Source: Kiritimatiellia bacterium (GTDB lineage: Bacteria > Verrucomicrobiota > Kiritimatiellia > CAIQIC01 > Lenti-01). From it: a stretch of 64,000 bases of DNA. The notes under the pieces were generated by a model. That model saw nothing but the letters and a program-made list of their open reading frames with translations. It did no database searches and had not been told where the DNA came from. Numbering within the stretch: the first letter of the stretch is position 1; every line of letters starts with the position of its first letter. The stretch covers positions 1-64,000 of the forward strand of contig JAFTAH010000138.1 in assembly GCA_017458625.1 (NCBI GenBank), in the 5' to 3' direction. Of this stretch, positions 1 through 58,972 are shown piece by piece. Position numbers and translations under genes: made by a program.

Positions 1-122
1 AAAACTTGTTCAAACGACGGCATGGTGTTTCCCGACGAGGCGCCGGATTGAAGGCGCAGTTTCCTGCGTCGAAATCCGGCAACGACGTGGGGGAACATCA
101 GGGCAAGTTTGGACAAGGAATT
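1..122. repeat. Large imperfect fold-back repeat at window edge
   Basis: Two arms of about 50 nt face each other around a short loop (about 52-72) that itself contains GCGCAG/CTGCGTC. The left arm reads CTTGTTCAAAC ... GCCGGATT. The reverse complement of the right arm reads CTTGTCCAAAC ... GCCGGATT, with TGTTTCCC/TGTTCCCC aligned between them. The element touches base 1, so its outer end may lie outside the window. It looks like a palindromic mobile or REP-type element; no gene is associated with it here. Confidence 0.6.
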
Positions 123-862
123 TTGAATTCAGGACACTAGGCCCCCCGCATGGACCGTCGCCCCAACTCGAATAATGCGTCCCCGCCGCCACAGACGAAC
201 GGGGACGCATGCCCCACTTTCCCTTGGCGTGGACGCGAACGAACCCAACTCGAGAATCATCCCTCGCTTTGCGGCACCCTCCGTCTCCCTCCCGATTCCC
301 CGCTGACCGACGACCTCCTCCGCTCCCGTGCCGCCCTTCCCCGCTCCTGGCGCGTGGTCCGCGAGGCCAATCCCCCCTGACTCGCCGTCGTTGGATTATC
401 GACATCCGGCGTCCGTCGTCCTCGCCCTCCACGTAGCGGGAGGGATACAATGCATTGCGTCCGCCCGGTGTGGCAACGGCGTCCCCGCCGTTTGCCCCGC
501 CCGCCTCCTATCGCCGCAACGGCGAGACGCCGTTGCCACATCAACTGCCGCTTTCCTCTCGCCCAAAAAGCCACTTCGACGATGCCGACGAAATCGACGA
601 AATCGAATGTTGTCGATGGCAGTCGATTCAACTTTTCAACCTTCCCCTCTGTGCTTTCCTGGGGGGGGGACCGCCCCTGCGGGTTCCCGGGGTCCGGCAC
701 GCCCTCCCCCCGGACGGACCAAACAGACAGCGGGGGCGCGTCCGCATGCGAGTCGGAAGCCGGGGGAGCGAAAACGTTGGCCCAAGCCGGAAAAAGGGCT
801 GTCCATCGGGGGGCGAGTGTGAGAGAATTGGCAGGTCAACTTCCACCCTCGCCGACACGCCC
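123..862. other. Gene-free stretch with small hairpins
   Basis: No open frame here has a credible start, composition or recognisable protein. The stretch holds a GCGTCCCC/GGGGACGC hairpin near 177-208, a partial repeat of CCCAACTCGA at about 161 and 245, and the GGCAACGGC palindrome pair at 469-540. It leads into the signal peptide of the gene starting at 863. Confidence 0.6.
469..540. repeat. GGCAACGGC palindromic repeat pair
   Basis: TGTGGCAACGGCGTC at 469-483 faces its near-complement at 516-540 across a pyrimidine-rich spacer. The right arm is itself a perfect 9-bp hairpin, GCAACGGCG-aga-CGCCGTTGC (516-536). The same palindrome recurs at 49268-49290, so this is a dispersed REP-like family. 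Confidence 0.65.
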
Positions 863-3307
863 ATGAACACACGTTTTCTCAAGTCTTCCGCATTTGCCGC
901 GTCCCTGGTCTCGCTGTTGGTCGCAGGGACAGCCCTCCTGACCATGGCCCCGACGGTGGCCGGCGCGCTGGCAAGCAGCCGTCCCGCGGACAAGACTTCG
1001 CGGACGGCGGCGCGGGCCGGCGGCGGCACGGGCCGGGCCGGGCCGGCGCGCTGGAACAAGCTGGAGAACTGCACGCTGGCGGGCGGCTACATGGACGGCG
1101 ACAGCTTCCACGTGCTCTCGGGCGGGCGCGACATCGTCATCCGCCTCTACTTCGTGGACACGCCGGAAACCGACGACACGCATCCGGAGCGCAATCACGA
1201 CCAGGCCGACTACTTCCACATCCCGATCACGCAAGTGATTCCCGTCGGCAAGCAGGGCAAGAAGTTCACGGAGAAGATGCTGCGCGGCGAGAAGTTCACG
1301 GTCTGGACCCGCTGGGAGGACGCGATGGGGTCGGGCCAGAAACGCTACTTCGGCATCGTGGAGGTCAACGGCCGCTCCCTCGCCGAGCTCCTGGTGGAGC
1401 AGGGTCTGGCGCGCGTCTACGGCGCCTCCTGCGTGCTGCCGGACGGCACCAGCGTGGACCAGGAGTTCAAGCGCCTCCGCCAGAAGGAGAACCGCGCCCG
1501 CGCCAAGAAGCTCGGCGGCTGGGGCCGGGACGTCAAGCGCGGCAAGGCCTCCTCCGGCGGCGACGGCATGTTCGCGGCGGGCCTGGAGGACCTGGAGAAC
1601 GAGGACGGCGAGTTCGTGCCGGCCTGGATGGACGAGGAGCTGGCGGACCTCAAGCCCTACTCCGACAAGTGGCTGAACGTGCCCATCGTGGCCTTCCTGC
1701 GCGCGGAGACGTTCATCAACACCGAGCAGTTCGAGGACGCGGAAATCGAGATGCGCAAGCTGCTCAAGCGCTTCCCGGACCATCCGCAGAAGGCGCGCAT
1801 CGAGTTCTACCTGGCCCTCTCATGCGCCATGCAGGAGCGCTTCCCCGAGGCGATCCGCCGCTTCAAGACCTGGCTCTCGGCGCACCCGAAGGACGACCCG
1901 CTGGCCCCGGACGTCCAGTACTGGCTCCCCATCTCGATGTACTACGGCGGCCAGTACGAGGAGGCCCTGCCGCTGTTCCGCGACTACGCCAAGAACAACC
2001 CGATGACCCCCTACGCGCCCGAGGCCGAGTACCGCGCCGCCTGCTGCCTCTACGCCCTCGAGGACTACGAGGGCTGCACCCAGGCCACCGAGGCGTGGCT
2101 CGCCGCGCATCCCGACCACTACTTCAAGTTCGAGGCCTCCATCATGCTCGGCGACGCCTATGGCACCCTCGCCGACTTCCCCGCCGCCAAGACCGCCTAC
2201 CGCCGCGCGATGGTCCCCGCCGCCGGCCCGTTCTACTACATCGCCCTCACCCAGGCCTCCCGCCTCCACAAGGCCCTCGCCGAGCCCGAGGAATACCAGG
2301 AGATGGCCCGCGAGTACGAGCAGTACATCCGCGACATGCCCAACGACTCCAACATCGTCGACGCCGGCTACAACGCGGGCTGGGCCTTCCGCCAGCTCAA
2401 GCACCCCGAGCGCGCCGTCGCCCTCTACTGGCGCATGATCGAGCTTTTCGGCAACACGCCCGCCTGGGAGGGCTTCGACCTCATCCTGGCCGACCTCGCC
2501 AAGCTCTACCCCCGCGACGACCCCAACGCCTATTCCCGCGAGCTCAACCAGCGCTACACCAAGGCCCTCGCCGCCGGCCGCACCACCCTCGCCAGCCGCC
2601 TCGCCGCCGAGATCGTCAAGCGCGCCACCAACACCGCCGACTTCCAGAAGGGCCTCGCCTCCTTCGCCAGCCACTTCCCCGCCGACGCCCTCGGCCCCGA
2701 GACCCTCGTCTGGCTCGGCCGCTCCTGGATCGAGAACGGCATGCCCGACGCCGGCACCGAATACCTCCGGCAGCTCCTCGCCGCCTACCCCGACACCCGG
2801 CCCGTCCCCGAGGCCCAGATGCTCCTCTCCCAGCAGGCCCTCGAGCGCCGCCAGTACGACGAGGCCTTCTCCATGGCCGACGCCGTGGTCCAGAACGCCG
2901 CCGAGCTCGACATCTACGTCGAGGCCACCTTCTGCCGCGCCGAGGCCCTGCGCGGACTCGGCCACCACGGCGAGGCCATCAGCGACTACAACGAGATCCT
3001 CGCCAACCGTTCCGCCCCCCGCCGCCTCAAGCCCGAGGCCCTCCTCGGCATCGCCTCCTGCCTCGAGGCCCAGAACGAGTTCGCCCAGGCCATCGCCTAC
3101 TACCAGCGCATCTACGTCCTCTACCGCGCCTACAAGCCCCAGGTCCGCCTCGCCTACCTCCGCTCCGGCATCGACTTCGAGCGCCTCGGCAAGACCCAGG
3201 ACGCCATCAACACCTACCAGGAGTTCCTCGGCGACCACGACCTCGCCGCCGGCTCCGCCGAGTCCGCCACCGCCACCCAGCGCCTCGCCGCCCTCCGCGG
3301 CTCCTGA
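863..3307 (+). CDS. Secreted thermonuclease-domain protein with TPR repeats
   Basis: An 814-aa protein. Residues 1-35 are a signal peptide (hydrophobic core SLLVAGTALL). Residues 65-220 form a staphylococcal-nuclease (SNase) domain with the family's catalytic set in place: DGD at 78-80, R94, D99-T100 and E102 in RLYFVDTPE, and R161 at the position of SNase R87. The remainder (about 250-814) is a solenoid of tetratricopeptide-like helical repeats. The expected activity is Ca-dependent phosphodiester cleavage outside the cytoplasm; the TPR part probably binds a partner. I chose the ATG at 863 because the frame upstream lacks coding character and the signal peptide begins there. A shorter SNase paralogue is at 41264. 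It precedes another secreted TPR gene by 110 nt, so co-transcription is possible. Substrate and partner are unknown. Confidence 0.85.
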   Translation: MNTRFLKSSAFAASLVSLLVAGTALLTMAPTVAGALASSRPADKTSRTAARAGGGTGRAGPARWNKLENCTLAGGYMDGDSFHVLSGGRDIVIRLYFVDTPETDDTHPERNHDQADYFHIPITQVIPVGKQGKKFTEKMLRGEKFTVWTRWEDAMGSGQKRYFGIVEVNGRSLAELLVEQGLARVYGASCVLPDGTSVDQEFKRLRQKENRARAKKLGGWGRDVKRGKASSGGDGMFAAGLEDLENEDGEFVPAWMDEELADLKPYSDKWLNVPIVAFLRAETFINTEQFEDAEIEMRKLLKRFPDHPQKARIEFYLALSCAMQERFPEAIRRFKTWLSAHPKDDPLAPDVQYWLPISMYYGGQYEEALPLFRDYAKNNPMTPYAPEAEYRAACCLYALEDYEGCTQATEAWLAAHPDHYFKFEASIMLGDAYGTLADFPAAKTAYRRAMVPAAGPFYYIALTQASRLHKALAEPEEYQEMAREYEQYIRDMPNDSNIVDAGYNAGWAFRQLKHPERAVALYWRMIELFGNTPAWEGFDLILADLAKLYPRDDPNAYSRELNQRYTKALAAGRTTLASRLAAEIVKRATNTADFQKGLASFASHFPADALGPETLVWLGRSWIENGMPDAGTEYLRQLLAAYPDTRPVPEAQMLLSQQALERRQYDEAFSMADAVVQNAAELDIYVEATFCRAEALRGLGHHGEAISDYNEILANRSAPRRLKPEALLGIASCLEAQNEFAQAIAYYQRIYVLYRAYKPQVRLAYLRSGIDFERLGKTQDAINTYQEFLGDHDLAAGSAESATATQRLAALRGS

Positions 3308-3310
3308 AAA

Positions 3311-3398
3311 CCCGTTTCCATTGCATGGAAAACCCCCGGAAACATGGTTCCATTGTCTGGAAAAACCCCCGAAACATGCTTCCATTGTCTGGAAAAGT
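3311..3398 (+). repeat. Tandem ~33-bp GGAAACATG/TTCCATT repeats
   Basis: Three contiguous units (3311-3332 partial, 3333-3365, 3366-3398) follow the pattern CCCCGGAAACATG, then TTCCATTG, then TGGAAAA. Each unit carries the inverted pair TTCCA/TGGAA. The array ends 19 nt before the next ATG, so it lies in that gene's leader. Related arrays are at 4641-4701 (reverse) and 32768-32861. Confidence 0.85.
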
Positions 3399-3417
3399 CC
3401 CCAACCCCCGCCCCGCC

Positions 3418-4491
3418 ATGAAACCGATCCGCCTCCCCGCCTCCGCCGCCGTCCTCGTCCTCGCCGCGCTGCTCGCGCCCGTCGTCGCCGCGCCGCCGGC
3501 CGCCGCGCAGCAGCTCGGCCCCTACGAGGTCCAGACGAAGGGCGCCTCCTTCAACGCCAAGTTCATCAAGCGCGAAAAGGACACCGTGTGGCTCCGCCGC
3601 ATCGCCCCCGACGGCACCATCGGCCCGCAGGTCGGGTACGAGAAGGCCGACATCGAGAACGTCGCCATGCCGCCCCCCGCCTTCTTCTCCAACGTCTACG
3701 CCATGGTCGCCTCGCCCACGCCGCCCCCCGCCTCCTCGCTCATCCGCGCCGACAAGGCCATCGACGCCTTCATCGACACCACCCGCCCCTACCGCGACCT
3801 GCCCGGCATCATCTGCGACGAGGCCATCTTCCTCAAGGGCCAGCTGCTCGACCTCCAGCGCAAGTACGACGACGCCATCGCCACCTACGAGAGCCTCCGC
3901 TCCATGAATCCCCCCTCCCCCTTCGCCACCAACGCCCTCGTCCGCGTCGGCATCGACTACCAGCGCACCACCAACTCCCTCGAGGCCATCTCCTGCCTGT
4001 CCGGCGTGCTGCTGCCCGAGGACGACGAGAACCTCCTCAGCGCCCTCCTCTTCGCGCTGGGCGACGCCTTCGCCGACGTCGGCAACTACGACAACGCCCT
4101 CCAGTCCTACCTCACGCTCGTCGTCTTCTACCCCTACGTCCGCGACAACGAGCCCCGCGCCCTCGCCAAGGTCCTGCCCTGCTACGCGGCCCTCAAGGAG
4201 TGGGAGCCGCTCTACCGCGCCATCCAGGACATCCACGCCACCTACCCCGGCACCCCCGCCGCCGCCGTCGCCGACGCCATCGCCAAGAAGTACGCCAAGG
4301 AGCTCGGCGAGGCCGGCCTCCTCGTCGCCGATGGCGAACGCGTCGTGGAAGACGCCGCCGACGGCCCCCTCAAGGGCACCACCGCCGCCACCGAGGCCCC
4401 CGAGCACACCCAGCTCCCCGGCGCCTCCGCCAGGCCCGACGCCGACATCTCCCCCATCGCCGACACCGTCACCTACCCCGACGAGCTGTAG
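3418..4491 (+). CDS. Secreted TPR protein
   Basis: A 357-aa protein of unassigned function. The N-terminus (1-31) is a signal peptide with a long Ala/Leu/Val core ending in AAPPAAA. Residues 32-90 are a small beta-type segment (YEVQTKGASFNAKFIKREKD). Residues 115-300 are helical repeats of TPR type, for example LLDLQRKYDDAIATYESL and ALGDAFADVGNYDNALQSYL. The C-terminal 50 residues are disordered and Pro/Ala/Glu-rich. It follows the SNase-TPR gene in the same direction, separated by the tandem repeat array. The two are likely part of one envelope-associated unit; an outer-membrane assembly or tol-pal-like scaffold role is possible but not shown. Confidence 0.8.
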   Translation: MKPIRLPASAAVLVLAALLAPVVAAPPAAAQQLGPYEVQTKGASFNAKFIKREKDTVWLRRIAPDGTIGPQVGYEKADIENVAMPPPAFFSNVYAMVASPTPPPASSLIRADKAIDAFIDTTRPYRDLPGIICDEAIFLKGQLLDLQRKYDDAIATYESLRSMNPPSPFATNALVRVGIDYQRTTNSLEAISCLSGVLLPEDDENLLSALLFALGDAFADVGNYDNALQSYLTLVVFYPYVRDNEPRALAKVLPCYAALKEWEPLYRAIQDIHATYPGTPAAAVADAIAKKYAKELGEAGLLVADGERVVEDAADGPLKGTTAATEAPEHTQLPGASARPDADISPIADTVTYPDEL

Positions 4492-4562: not shown

Positions 4563-4601
4563 AATGCCTGCCCGCACCCCGGACTTGCGCCCGCAATATG
4601 T

Positions 4602-32767: not shown

Positions 32768-32861
32768 CCCGGAAACATGTTTCCATTCCATGGAAAAACC
32801 CCGGAAACACGTTTCCATTCCATGGAAAAAGTGCCGAAACATAGTTCCATTGCCTGGACAA
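32768..32861 (+). repeat. Tandem ~32-bp GGAAACATG/TTCCATT repeats
   Basis: Three contiguous units (32768-32798, 32799-32830, 32831-32861) follow the pattern CCCGGAAACATG, TTTCCATTCCATGGAAA. The inner TTTCCATTCCATGGAAA is near-palindromic. The array ends 4 nt before the murF ATG, occupying the whole ribosome-binding region. Confidence 0.88.
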
Positions 32862-32865
32862 CCCC

Positions 32866-34317
32866 ATGAAGCCTACCACGCTTGAAACGCTGGCGTCCTG
32901 GTGCGGCGCCGCCTACAGTCCGCCGCGCGACGGGTCGCCGGCCCCCGCCGCCATCACCTCGCTGGCCATCGACTCCCGCAAGCTCGCGCCCGGCACCCTC
33001 TTCTTCGCCCTGCCCGGCGAGCGCGCGGATGGCCACGACTTCCTCGGGGCCGTCGCCCCGGCGGGCGCGGCGGCCGTCGTGCGCGCCGACTACCCGGAGG
33101 ACAAGCTGCCGCCCGCCGCCGCGCTGCTGCGCCATCCCGACCCGGCGGCCGCCCTGCTGGCCATCGCCGCCGCCTACCGCCGCGAGTTCGCGGGGCGGGC
33201 GACCATCGTCGCCATCGCGGGCTCCGTGGGCAAGACGACGACCAAGGAGCTGGTCGCTGACGCCCTGTCCACCGTGGGACCGACCGTCCGCACCGTGGCC
33301 AATCTCAACAACCAGCTCGGCATGCCGCTGTCCCTCGCCACGTTGGGAGAGGACACCCGTTTCGGCGTGTTCGAGGTAGGCATCTCCCATCCCGGAGAAA
33401 TGCCGCCGCTGGCGGACGTGTTGCGTCCGGATGCCGTGGTCTTCACCACCATCGGCCCGGTCCATCTCGAATACTTCCCGTCCGTCGAGGCCATCGCCGA
33501 GGAGAAGGCGCAGCTGCTGGACGCGCTGACCCCGGGCGGGCTGGCGGTCCTGGACGCCTCGTCGCCCTATTTTCCGATCCTCCGCCGCCATGCGGAAGCG
33601 CGCCAGGCCCGCCTCGTCACCACGGCCCCCGAGTCCGCCGGCATTGCCGCCGACTACGTGTCGCGGCCCGACCCCGACGCCCCCGGCCAACGCGCCATCG
33701 TCGTCGAGACGGCCACGGGCGAGTCCGCCTCCCTGGCGCTGCCGCCGCCGGGGGGCCACATGGTCGCGAACCTGGTGCCCGCCGTCGCGCTGGCCCGCAC
33801 GCTAGGGGCAACCTGGGACGAACTCCGCACGGCCTTCGAGACGCCCTCCGCCGCCCCGATGCGCTGGGCCCGCTCGGTACTTCCCGTCACTGGCATCCAC
33901 CTGGTCAACGACGCCTACAACGCCAACCCCATCTCCATGCGCGCCTCCATCGAGTCCTTCCTGGCGATGCCGCCGCCGGCTCCCGCGAGCCGCCGCCACC
34001 TGGCCGTCGGGCCGATGCTCGAGCTCGGCAGCATCGCGCAGGAGGCCCATCAGGCGCTGGGGCGGCAGCTCGCGGCCATTCCGGCCGCCGCTGGCGTCGG
34101 TGCCATCGTCGTCCTCGACACCTACCCTCCGGCCTCGCCGCTGGCCCATGCCATCGCCGACGCCTACGCCGCCGCCCATGGCACGGCCCCGTTGCTCCTG
34201 GCCGCCGACTACCCGCCTGCCGCCGACTTCCTCCGCGCCCATGCCGCCCCCGCCGACCTGCTCCTGCTCAAGGCGTCCCGCGGCCTCCACCTCGAACGTC
34301 TGATTCCGCTGCTCTAG
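32866..34317 (+). CDS. murF: UDP-MurNAc-tripeptide D-Ala-D-Ala ligase MurF
   Basis: A 483-aa Mur ligase that adds D-Ala-D-Ala to UDP-MurNAc-tripeptide in the cytoplasm. N-terminal uridine-binding region AITSLAIDSRKLAPGTLFFALPG, ATP loop AGSVGKTTTKE (about 121-131), central FGVFEVGISHPGEM, and C-terminal domain VNDAYNANPISM are typical. The upstream sequence has no Shine-Dalgarno; instead a repeat array reaches to within 4 nt of the ATG. Confidence 0.95.
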   Translation: MKPTTLETLASWCGAAYSPPRDGSPAPAAITSLAIDSRKLAPGTLFFALPGERADGHDFLGAVAPAGAAAVVRADYPEDKLPPAAALLRHPDPAAALLAIAAAYRREFAGRATIVAIAGSVGKTTTKELVADALSTVGPTVRTVANLNNQLGMPLSLATLGEDTRFGVFEVGISHPGEMPPLADVLRPDAVVFTTIGPVHLEYFPSVEAIAEEKAQLLDALTPGGLAVLDASSPYFPILRRHAEARQARLVTTAPESAGIAADYVSRPDPDAPGQRAIVVETATGESASLALPPPGGHMVANLVPAVALARTLGATWDELRTAFETPSAAPMRWARSVLPVTGIHLVNDAYNANPISMRASIESFLAMPPPAPASRRHLAVGPMLELGSIAQEAHQALGRQLAAIPAAAGVGAIVVLDTYPPASPLAHAIADAYAAAHGTAPLLLAADYPPAADFLRAHAAPADLLLLKASRGLHLERLIPLL

Positions 34318-56109: not shown

Positions 56110-56303
56110 AAATCGATTCCTCCCACGACTTCGGCACCCGCGAATGCCCCTCCTGCGGCGTCCGCGTCCCCGCCAACGAGAACCGCTGCCCCATCTGCCA
56201 CTACCCCTTCCCCGTCAAGTCCACCCTCTCCCGCTCCGCCCCTCTCATTGCCCTCGTCCTTCTCCTCATCTTTCTCGCCCTCCTCCTCCCCCTCTTCCTC
56301 TAG
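56106..56303 (+). CDS. Small zinc-ribbon membrane protein coupled to molybdenum hydroxylase
   Basis: A 65-aa protein starting at a GTG that overlaps the upstream TGA (GTGA). Residues 14-32 form a zinc ribbon with two C-x-x-C pairs (ECPSCG and RCPICHYPF). Residues 43-65 are one hydrophobic membrane segment (LIALVLLLIFLALLLPLFL) ending abruptly. The TAG stop is the first three bases of the TAGAGC-ended MITE-like element, so the original C-terminus may have been longer. Function is unknown; coupling suggests assembly or membrane tethering of the hydroxylase. Confidence 0.75.
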   Translation: MKIDSSHDFGTRECPSCGVRVPANENRCPICHYPFPVKSTLSRSAPLIALVLLLIFLALLLPLFL

Positions 56304-56439
56304 AGCATTTTCAAGAATATTGCAGCCGTTTTCGGTAGGGGCCGACCGCCGGGCGGCCCGAAGAACAATTCGGGAAACGGCCCGCCCGGCGGTCGGGCCC
56401 TACCATGGATGTGGCCACATATTTTCTTAATTCGCTCTA
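56301..56439. mobile_element. MITE-like element with TAGAGC ends, copy 1 (139 bp)
   Basis: The left end is TAGAGCATTTTCAAGAATA; the right end on the minus strand is TAGAGCGAATTAAGAAAATA. The interior is a strong hairpin: GGTAGGGGCCGACCGCC... on one side and its near-complement ending GGTCGGGCCCTACC on the other (about 56334-56404). Both outer ends carry TA, consistent with TA target-site duplication as in Tc1/mariner-IS630 transposition. No protein is encoded. Copy 2 is at 58835 in opposite orientation; a partial copy is at 58329. Confidence 0.75.
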
Positions 56440-56734
56440 CCCTCCTAGAAATCCTAGAAATCTTTAGAAATCTCTCGCCTTCCCCGCCCCCCCTGCGCCC
56501 ACCCGCCCCCCCCGTCGCCATCGTCCCCCTCGTCCCCTCCTCCCCCCCGCAAAAAATCTTCTCCTCCCCCTCATTTTTCTCTTGCCCGTCCCCTCCCCTA
56601 GGCGTACCCTTGACTTGGATTCGGGAAGCGGACTCCTCTCCGGAACCACCCGCCCCCCCCATCCAAAAAACGCATAAAACCTTAGAGAAAACTGACAAAA
56701 CTCCACAACGGGCAACAGCCCAAAGGATGGCCAA
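56304..56734. other. Intergenic region with MITE and CTAG array
   Basis: A 431-bp gap: most of MITE copy 1, a CCTAGAAAT array (56443-56473), then pyrimidine-rich DNA turning AT-richer (about 56640-56730) just before the lower-GC secreted genes. AAAGGA at 56721-56727 is the ribosome-binding site of the next gene. No gene was seen. Confidence 0.65.
56443..56473. repeat. CCTAGAAAT array, third CTAG-type site
   Basis: CCTAGAAAT occurs twice in tandem, then CTTTAGAAAT. The period is 9 bp rather than 8, but the CTAG-centred content matches arrays at 38570 and 51236. It lies 4 nt beyond the MITE end. Confidence 0.65.
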
Positions 56735-57412
56735 ATGAAAAAAGTATCCCTGATTCTCCTCGCCGCCGCCCTCTCGGCAACGGCCACCCTCGCCCAGTCG
56801 GCGACTGAGCCCGTCTACTCCCAGAATGCCGTCGGTTTCATCAACAAGACCGTCGAAGCTGGCACCTATGCAGCCTTGACCTTCCCGTTCGTTGACATGG
56901 CCGCGACCAATGACCTGATTGACTTCGACTCCCAGCAGATTGCCAAGGATGCCACCCGTGGCTCTACCGTCTATTTCTGGAATGGAACTGGTTGGGATAT
57001 GAAGACTGCACGCAACAATGGCTTCAATACCGGCAAGAAGCTTCTCCCCGGTGAACTGTTCCTGTACAAGCCCGCCTCGCAGCAGACTGTGGTCCTCTGC
57101 GGTGAAGTTCCCGATAGCGCAGAGCTTCAACGCGATATCGTAGGTGCGGCCAACTACACGGCTTGCGGCAATCCCTATCCCGTTGCTACTGAATTTGATA
57201 CTTCGACTTTGGCGACTAGTTCTCCCCGTGGTGCGACTGCGTATTTCTGGAATGGAACTGGTTGGGATATGAAGACTGCGCGCAACAATGGCTTCAATAC
57301 CGGCAAGATTCTTGATCCTGGTGAGGGTTTCTTGTACAAGACACTTGCAACAGGTGCCTCGACGAACTGGGTTGTGACCCGCCCCTATGACTTCCCTGCT
57401 GCCAAGGAATAA
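56735..57412 (+). CDS. Secreted protein with duplicated internal cassette
   Basis: A 225-aa protein with a signal peptide (VSLILLAAALSATATLAQ). The mature part has two halves, each containing YFWNGTGWDMKTARNNGFNT G-K (about residues 80-101 and 170-191), followed by a 'PGExFLYK' strand. The coding DNA of the two cassettes is nearly identical (56972-57037 and 57242-57307, one mismatch in 66 nt). It lacks a PEP-CTERM tail. GC is lower than neighbours. It lies 30 nt before the PEP-CTERM gene, same operon. Function is unknown; a surface or matrix protein is likely. Confidence 0.8.
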   Translation: MKKVSLILLAAALSATATLAQSATEPVYSQNAVGFINKTVEAGTYAALTFPFVDMAATNDLIDFDSQQIAKDATRGSTVYFWNGTGWDMKTARNNGFNTGKKLLPGELFLYKPASQQTVVLCGEVPDSAELQRDIVGAANYTACGNPYPVATEFDTSTLATSSPRGATAYFWNGTGWDMKTARNNGFNTGKILDPGEGFLYKTLATGASTNWVVTRPYDFPAAKE

Positions 57413-57442
57413 CCCATAACATTTAGAAAGAAAGGTCTGAAA

Positions 57443-58102
57443 ATGAAGAAAGTATTGATTGGCTTGTTGGTCGCCTTGATGGCTGCCTCGTCGTTCGCTG
57501 GTATACTTGTCGCTTGGGATACAGGTGGTTTCTTGAGTGGTACTGATGGTAACCCTTATGTTTTCGATAGCGATGACGAAAGCACTACGAAATTGGTCTG
57601 GGATTTGGTCTATACGACCGATTCCTCTATCACCACGCCTGTGCTGAATGAGACAACGGGTGAAATCACGTACGGAAAGAACGACACGATTGTCTCCCAG
57701 CGTATTGCGACGCCAGGTGCCGATAAGGTGAACACGGAGATCACTGATCTCATCGGCTCGCCTCAGGTTTCTCTGAGTCCGCAGGAGATGGATGCTGGTG
57801 CCTACTTGAATAATGTAACATACCAGCACAGGGAGTTCCCCTATAGCTCTGGTGGGCTGTATGCGGCGGTGTTCCAGTACACGTCTGACAACACCGTTTA
57901 TTACGCTATGACGGCTTTGGTTACAGAGGTCAACTGGTCGAATGATGGTTCTGCCACGCCGACTGAAGTTTGCTTCGACTTGACCGCTGATACCCAGTTG
58001 GAGAAGTTGGGCTCGTTCACTCCTGTGCCTGAGCCCGCTACGATGAGCCTGCTGGGCCTTGGCGCGCTGGCGATGGTTCTCCGCCGCAAGCTCCGCAAGT
58101 AG
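57443..58102 (+). CDS. PEP-CTERM sorted secreted protein
   Basis: A 219-aa protein with a signal peptide (VLIGLLVALMAASSFAG) and a C-terminal PEP-CTERM signal: VPEPATMSLLGLGALAMVL then RRKLRK. Proteins of this type are handled by an exosortase, usually linked to exopolysaccharide. The extracellular domain is unrecognised. AGAAAGG precedes the ATG at good spacing, and a terminator follows. GC is visibly lower than the chromosome around it. The nearby EPS operon (59-64 kb) fits the known PEP-CTERM/EPS association; the exosortase itself is not in this window. Confidence 0.9.
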   Translation: MKKVLIGLLVALMAASSFAGILVAWDTGGFLSGTDGNPYVFDSDDESTTKLVWDLVYTTDSSITTPVLNETTGEITYGKNDTIVSQRIATPGADKVNTEITDLIGSPQVSLSPQEMDAGAYLNNVTYQHREFPYSSGGLYAAVFQYTSDNTVYYAMTALVTEVNWSNDGSATPTEVCFDLTADTQLEKLGSFTPVPEPATMSLLGLGALAMVLRRKLRK

Positions 58103-58125
58103 TTTTCGGTTAGGTTATATACGTT

Positions 58126-58158
58126 CTGGCCGGTGGGCATCGCTCACCGGCCAGTTTT
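58126..58158 (+). terminator. Rho-independent terminator after PEP-CTERM gene
   Basis: CTGGCCGGTG (58126-58135) pairs with CACCGGCCAG (58145-58154), followed by TTTT. It is 23 nt after the stop codon. Confidence 0.9.
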
Positions 58159-58301
58159 GTATTCCCCCTTCCCCGCCCACCCCTTGTTGTGACGAGGACG
58201 CCCCCACCCTCGCCCTTTCCCTTCTCCTCGCCCCTTTCTTCCTTCCCCTTTTTTCCCCCTCTCTCAACCCTGGCCCCTCCACCCCGCCCGCTCCAATCGT
58301 C

Positions 58302-58328
58302 GTGATTTTACGTCAATCATTGCCCATT
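58302..58328 (+). repeat. Dispersed motif, copy 14, interrupted by MITE
   Basis: GTGATTTTACGTCAATCATT then GCCCATT, identical to copy 15 up to base 58328, where a TAGGGC MITE end begins. Copy 15 instead continues with TCGCCCATTTTTCC. Confidence 0.75.
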
Positions 58329-58395
58329 TAGGGCAAATTTAGAAAATTTGTGGCCACATCCATGGTAGGGCCCGACCGCCGGGCGGCCCGGAAAA
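58329..58395. mobile_element. Partial MITE-like element, copy 3
   Basis: TAGGGCAAATTTAGAAAATT, then TGTGGCCACATCCATGG and TAGGGCCCGACCGCCGGGC align with the minus strand of copy 1 (56301-56439). The match ends around GGCGGCCCGG and the far end is missing or diverged. Confidence 0.65.
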
Positions 58396-58533
58396 CCAAT
58401 GCGAGGAACGCCCCGCCTCCTCTCCACCCCCCTCCCCCGAAATTCTCGAAACCCTCTCAATTCTCGATTTGCCTCCCCCGTCTCTACGTCTCTGCGCCTC
58501 TACTCCCCCTCCTCCCGACCCGCCCCAATCGTC

Positions 58534-58574
58534 GTGATTTTACGTCAATCATTGCCCATTTCGCCCATTTTTCC
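58534..58574 (+). repeat. Dispersed GTGATTTTACGTCAAA motif, copy 15
   Basis: GTGATTTTACGTCAATCATT, then GCCCATTTCGCCCATTTTTC. The first 27 nt are identical to copy 14, 232 bp upstream. Confidence 0.8.
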
Positions 58575-58706
58575 TCCCATTCATCCCCGTTTTTCCCCGC
58601 CTCATCCCCCCCCTTCTTCGTCCCCTCCCGTCCCCCTTGCCACCCCCTCCCGTACCGCAGGGGCGTCATCCCTCGCCCTCGCCCATTTTCGCCCCTCCAA
58701 ATTCGC

Positions 58707-58748
58707 GTGATTTCACGTCAAAATCAGCCTTTTTTCGCCATTTCTCGC
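58707..58748 (+). repeat. Dispersed GTGATTTTACGTCAAA motif, copy 16
   Basis: GTGATTTCACGTCAAAATCA, then GCCTTTTTTCGCCATTTCTC. Third copy within 410 bp. Confidence 0.8.
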
Positions 58749-58834
58749 CTCCCCTTCCCTCCTCGGCTTGCGCCCCCTGACTGCCCCTCTTGTCTTGGTG
58801 CCTCGGCCGTCGCGCCCCGCCTTCTCCCCCCCTC

Positions 58835-58972
58835 TAGAGCATTTTGCGAAAATGTGTGGCCGCAAGGTTCGGAGGTGCGACATCCTGTCGCGCCCAAATC
58901 AATTGCGCGGCTGGAAGCCGCACCTCCGGAAGCCGCCCGCCAAAGGGCTACAGTAATTTGAAAACCGCTCTA
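58835..58972. mobile_element. MITE-like element with TAGAGC ends, copy 2 (138 bp)
   Basis: The left end TAGAGCATTTTGCGAAAATG matches the minus-strand right end of copy 1 (both lead into GTGTGGCC/TGTGGCC). The right end read on the minus strand, TAGAGCGGTTTTCAAATTAC, matches copy 1's left end (both lead into TG-AGCC). The interior hairpin differs: CGGAGGTGCG ... CGCACCTCCG. So two elements share ends and length but carry different palindromic interiors. Confidence 0.72.

Follow-up and report, generated by a model that had tools for sequence, protein, structure and literature searches.

The window, a stretch of 64,000 nucleotides corresponding to positions 1-64000 of the contig labelled C95, comes from a 2.69-Mb assembly that is 80% complete and divided into 165 contigs. 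Near its right-hand side it carries two intact short repeats of the MITE type. The first, which we call B-type, measures 139 bp from TA to TA (56301..56439, plus strand) and contains a GGTAGGG...CCCTACC hairpin. Its left terminal repeat, TAGAGCATTTTCAAGAATATTGCAGCC (56301..56327, plus strand), was located by the end scan, and its right terminal repeat, TAGAGCGAATTAAGAAAATATGTGGCC (56413..56439, minus strand), is similar to an end that overlaps an IS630 gene on contig C94. The second, of A-type, measures 138 bp (58835..58972, plus strand) and contains a CGGAGGTGCG...CGCACCTCCG hairpin between a left terminal repeat, TAGAGCATTTTGCGAAAATGTGTGGCC (58835..58861, plus strand), and a right terminal repeat, TAGAGCGGTTTTCAAATTACTGTAGCC (58946..58972, minus strand), both identified by end pattern and scan. 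Each copy is defined by its ends, its internal pairing and its predicted folding as a hairpin, with DNA fold z values of -7.2 for 56301-56439 and -3.7 for 58835-58972. A third copy in the window, overlooked by the earlier sequence-only reading, is a truncated B-type element (58329..58390, unstranded) that retains half of the hairpin and one decayed end (TAGGGC) and is 92% complementary to 56378-56439. A further intact A-type copy lies just past the window end, at contig position 66644-66781. An Rfam search with the B-type copy returned only a sub-threshold match, to mir-341, and no known RNA family. Between the MITEs, positions 56735-58102 hold two adjoining genes with signal-peptide-like starts, the second of whose products carries a PEP-CTERM motif.

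The two intact copies had been described from the letters alone as elements of 139 and 138 bp with TAGAGC ends, and they are present at these coordinates with exactly those ends. The description of shared ends around differing interiors likewise holds. The 27-bp ends of the A- and B-type window copies are 74% identical, while their interiors show an identity of 0.66 versus 0.61 for shuffled sequences (z 2.5) and are essentially unrelated. Two other features of that description carry less weight. Because the ends are inverted repeats, the "opposite orientation" of the copies has no clear meaning, and since there are many interior types, most of them spanning 135-258 bp, it is a coincidence that both window copies have the same length.

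To place these copies in their genomic context, we combined genome-wide pattern searches with a census of sequence totalling 757 kb, some of it picked because it contains ends. A single end pattern, TAGAGC-NNTTT-(9)-TGTRGCC with an N9 spacer, fits both ends of both window copies. With up to 3 mismatches, it occurs at 256 sites genome-wide versus 9 for the reversed control, so that the ends, whose failure to recur elsewhere would have spoken against a mobile family, do recur. CTAGAGCATTTT alone occurs 47 times in the genome, compared with 0 for its reversed control. A relaxed end scan of the 757 kb gave 172 sites, some of them due to chance, and 63 paired elements; one pairing of 394 bp, which falls outside the 135-258 bp range, consists of two elements joined by the script. 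The window repeats thus belong to a family of more than 100 tiny mobile elements that are short (mostly 135-258 bp), lack a transposase gene and carry TAGAGC...TGTRGCC terminal inverted repeats at both ends.

Within this family we distinguish several subfamilies by interior. Subfamily A (138 bp), represented in the window by 58835-58972, is the commonest, accounting for 32 of the 63 pairs and for 66 apex matches genome-wide. Subfamily B (135-139 bp) includes the window copy 56301-56439 and C131:849-983. In subfamily C (about 153-177 bp) one half is A-like and the other B-like, subfamily D (163-164 bp) has CTTCGT hairpins, and the remaining subfamilies reach 258 bp. Interiors are related for the pairs A-C, B-D, B-E and H-J, and most other pairs are unrelated. 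The ends extend beyond this genome: at no more than 1 mismatch, the pattern was found in 41 of the 96 genomes searched, own genome included, with a control near zero, and in several of the other genomes the copies read there have other interiors. In other genera, TAGAGC ends were also observed on a MITE family of 159 bp (L216-L235 in G007, L242-L255 in G030 and L138 in G010). Its interior has a single predicted fold kept through two-sided changes (11 of 45 pairs) along with invariant stretches, and a search of Rfam with this family of G007, G030 and G010 gave no match.

The elements are flanked by TA, and the context of this TA is itself biased. Immediately outside it, 53 of 61 elements have C at the left border, 52 of 61 have G at the right border, and 44 of 61 have both; the background frequency of CTAG is 458 of 8862 NTAN sites (690 kb). 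The claim of a TA target duplication is further supported by a paralogous empty site. When the flanks of a D-type element (C34:1204-1366) are joined, they align without gaps to C94:2741-2862 at 95% identity over 122 bp. The empty paralogue has TG at the position of the target TA, and the comparison fits TA duplication; the locus itself appears, judged by its reading frame, to be a duplicated gene for an IS30-type transposase. Similarly, an F-type element (C157:5606-5849) has TA on both sides and sits between two elements that elsewhere adjoin at a single TA. Elements often adjoin, and copies with one common TA were observed on C138, at C34:6590, at C127:373 and at C112:25583. Since C-TA-G is re-formed at every border, elements can stack end to end.

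Other repeats share this neighbourhood. One is a further MITE family, likewise flanked by TA and about 153 bp long, TAGTGTCCTGGAT...CAGGACACTA; it is present at window positions 1-139, at C7:1419-1572 and on C115, C145, C157, C12, C15 and C23; the window start falls inside the first of these copies. A-type elements adjoin the end of this MITE at least 5 times. The 64-kb window also contains a dozen or more copies of a dispersed motif like GTGATTTTACGTCAAA, often next to C-rich stretches (at 4590, 10400, 13919, 18210, 19376, 24674, 24926, 29748, 34466, 49434, 58274, 58522 and 58695). At 3303-3428 and 32768-32893, a 32-bp palindromic unit similar to CCCGGAAACATGTTTCCATTCCATGGAAAAAC is repeated in short arrays.

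With respect to the source of the ends, the genome contains three DDE_3 genes. At the terminus of contig C94 lies a truncated DDE_3/IS630-family transposase of which the C-terminal 115 aa are preserved (L068), and an end of the family, TAGAGCAAATTAAGAAATAATGTAGCC, overlaps its stop codon. The closest transposase hit, at 77% identity, comes from a goat-rumen Kiritimatiellae MAG, which suggests a host in Kiritimatiellae. Among relatives from Verrucomicrobia and further phyla are IS630 elements about 1.0 kb long that carry both ends. One of these, L159, is 1005 bp long and has TAGAGCGTATTAAATAAAACTGTAGCC ends forming an inverted repeat of 28/30; L154, L157 and L169 are further full-length IS630 elements with such ends. 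The proposed IS630/Tc1-type transposase with matching terminal repeats is therefore represented by the C94 gene fragment together with elements of about 1 kb such as L159. The 80%-complete, 165-contig assembly yielded no intact transposase gene bearing these ends. In the same genome, orfA remnants are joined to a right end in two short derivatives (C127 from 535, C22 up to 1665). The transposase of L159 (2387-3348) is read in two overlapping frames, which suggests programmed frameshifting, and in L157 and L169 only the second part is visible, as one long frame.

Several copies combine parts of different subfamilies. In C63:32860-32997, positions 1-118 match the A consensus except for one apex base, and the last 27 bp are an exact B-type end. 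C144:200-457 joins an F-type left part to an A-type right half, and in C119:10896-11033 the left end is of an older type and the right half is A-type. It is evident from these mosaics that both ends and half-elements undergo recombination, and the differences between interiors look like the outcome of independently formed deletion derivatives together with mosaic exchange among MITE lineages.

Taken together, these repeats are, with a probability of about 0.92, non-autonomous IS630-family (Tc1/mariner-type) MITEs that would be mobilised in trans and whose interiors would have arisen by internal deletion and mixing. A full-length IS630 element with the same ends of about 27 bp would supply the transposase, and the MITEs would move in trans. 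Insertion would take place at a TA within CTAG with duplication of the TA, and restoration of C-TA-G at both borders would then permit end-to-end stacking. Separate internal deletions of IS630 elements would yield the different interiors, which may later have been mixed into mosaics by recombination or by the pairing of ends from neighbouring elements. For the latter, stacking at the regenerated CTAG would offer a route to hybrid end pairs.

The sequence-only reading anticipated the MITE family, the TA duplication and the IS630/Tc1-type transposase with matching ends, and it went on to hint at REP-type units packaged between transposase-recognised ends. On this view, a RAYT (Y1) transposase would have moved the palindromes before their capture. 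The interiors are indeed GC-rich and palindromic, and the genome has six Y1_Tnp matches, five of them in long frames. The distribution of the hairpin modules nevertheless makes this packaging very improbable. The module GGTGCGACATCCTGTCGC has an end on both sides at 22 of 26 places and on one side at the remainder, and GACCGCCGGGCGG lacks any end at only 3 of 15 places, one of these being the truncated window copy with its decayed end. The modules are thus almost confined to TIR-bounded copies or their truncations, and none of the four Y1 (IS200/RAYT-like) loci examined contains one. Independent palindromes flanking a Y1 gene, as in REP/BIME-RAYT systems, are accordingly not seen here: free modules are few, and the four Y1 loci have none.

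Subfamily A shows an additional peculiarity at the tip of its hairpin. A dinucleotide within the 11-nt apex loop, CA in the window copy (58900..58901, unstranded), is hypervariable across A-type copies. Among 54 near-intact copies from this one assembly, the apex reads GA in 19, TA in 17, TC in 7 and TT in 6, and GT, AA, CA, AT and TG occur once each, giving nine states in total, most of them one change from TA and usually by transversion. In the same alignment, position 28 varies (G 35, A 18, T 1), and any other non-apex column has at most 6 departures in 54. Among copies that have another marker in common the apex varies, and copies with the same apex are not alike at further markers. Searches of 345 other genomes of the class and of viral contigs gave no match to the A-type apex. 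At one A-type apex (C123:95556-95795; L061, L094), another element, about 100 bp long and with CTAATCGTCTCAT/ATGAGACGATTAG ends, lies between two TA.

For this variability, we give even odds to an old polymorphism of several active source copies that gene conversion has shuffled without any special mutation process. Four states (GA, TA, TC and TT) cover 49 of the 54 copies, and the mosaics demonstrate recombination between copies; yet all four bases occur at both apex positions, in nine states, with nearly all other columns almost fixed, and the two variable columns are adjacent and lie within the apex loop. A true hypermutation site, at which a process acting on the extruded palindrome tip rewrites two bases at a much higher rate than nearly all other positions, is a tentative alternative. 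Candidate processes would be cleavage at the tip followed by repair, a turnaround of replication, or another TA-specific element, such as that at C123:95556-95795, inserting and excising there. Were hypermutation the cause, the copies would form a natural replicate array for measuring how bacteria process extruded palindrome tips. Errors of short-read metagenome assembly among near-identical repeats are an unlikely source. The assembly is fragmented and many contigs terminate in these repeats, but the element is just 138 bp long, many copies are contig-internal with unique flanks, and such errors would not single out two adjacent columns. Two further ideas were set aside. Five A copies sharing the flank CATCCAGGACAC were considered as duplicates of one insertion, which would prove apex change after insertion; this was dropped, as the flank is itself a MITE of about 153 bp (TAGTGTCC...GGACACTA) and the five copies may therefore be separate insertions at a hot target. 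An inversion of the apex, with GA and TC as reverse complements, was judged unlikely because the asymmetric CAAAT/ATTG arms keep their orientation.

These findings add an IS630-driven MITE system that has been strongly amplified in a bacterial group on which little work exists. They also suggest how new MITE subfamilies may be made, through internal deletion, CTAG stacking and the exchange of ends and half-hairpins.

Among known systems, the family is, by analogy, closest in kind to RUP of pneumococcus, a 107-bp element present in about 108 copies together with IS630-Spn1, with IS630-like ends, TA targets and insertions into IS genes (PMC2229807, PMC3049150). The likeness was judged on architecture and comprises small size, high copy number, IS630-type ends and TA targets. 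The family described here differs in having many interior types with one kind of end, mostly 135-258 bp in length, in its mosaics and in its host, which appears to belong to Kiritimatiellae. For IS630 itself, a preference for TA within 5'-CTAG-3' has been reported (Tenzen and Ohtsubo 1991, cited in PMC2170065); the likeness lies in this target, and IS630 is autonomous. ISY100, a Tc1/mariner-type bacterial IS, is TA-specific and has short ends recognised by a single transposase (PMC2170065); it shares the TA specificity and short ends with our family but is likewise autonomous. BOX elements of pneumococcus are also small modular mobile repeats, but they are built from boxA, boxB and boxC modules, and their ends are proposed to match ISSpn2 (PMC3049150) rather than IS630. 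REP/BIME elements with RAYT resemble the family in their GC-rich palindromes, whereas in our family the modules are restricted almost entirely to TIR-bounded elements with TA on their flanks.
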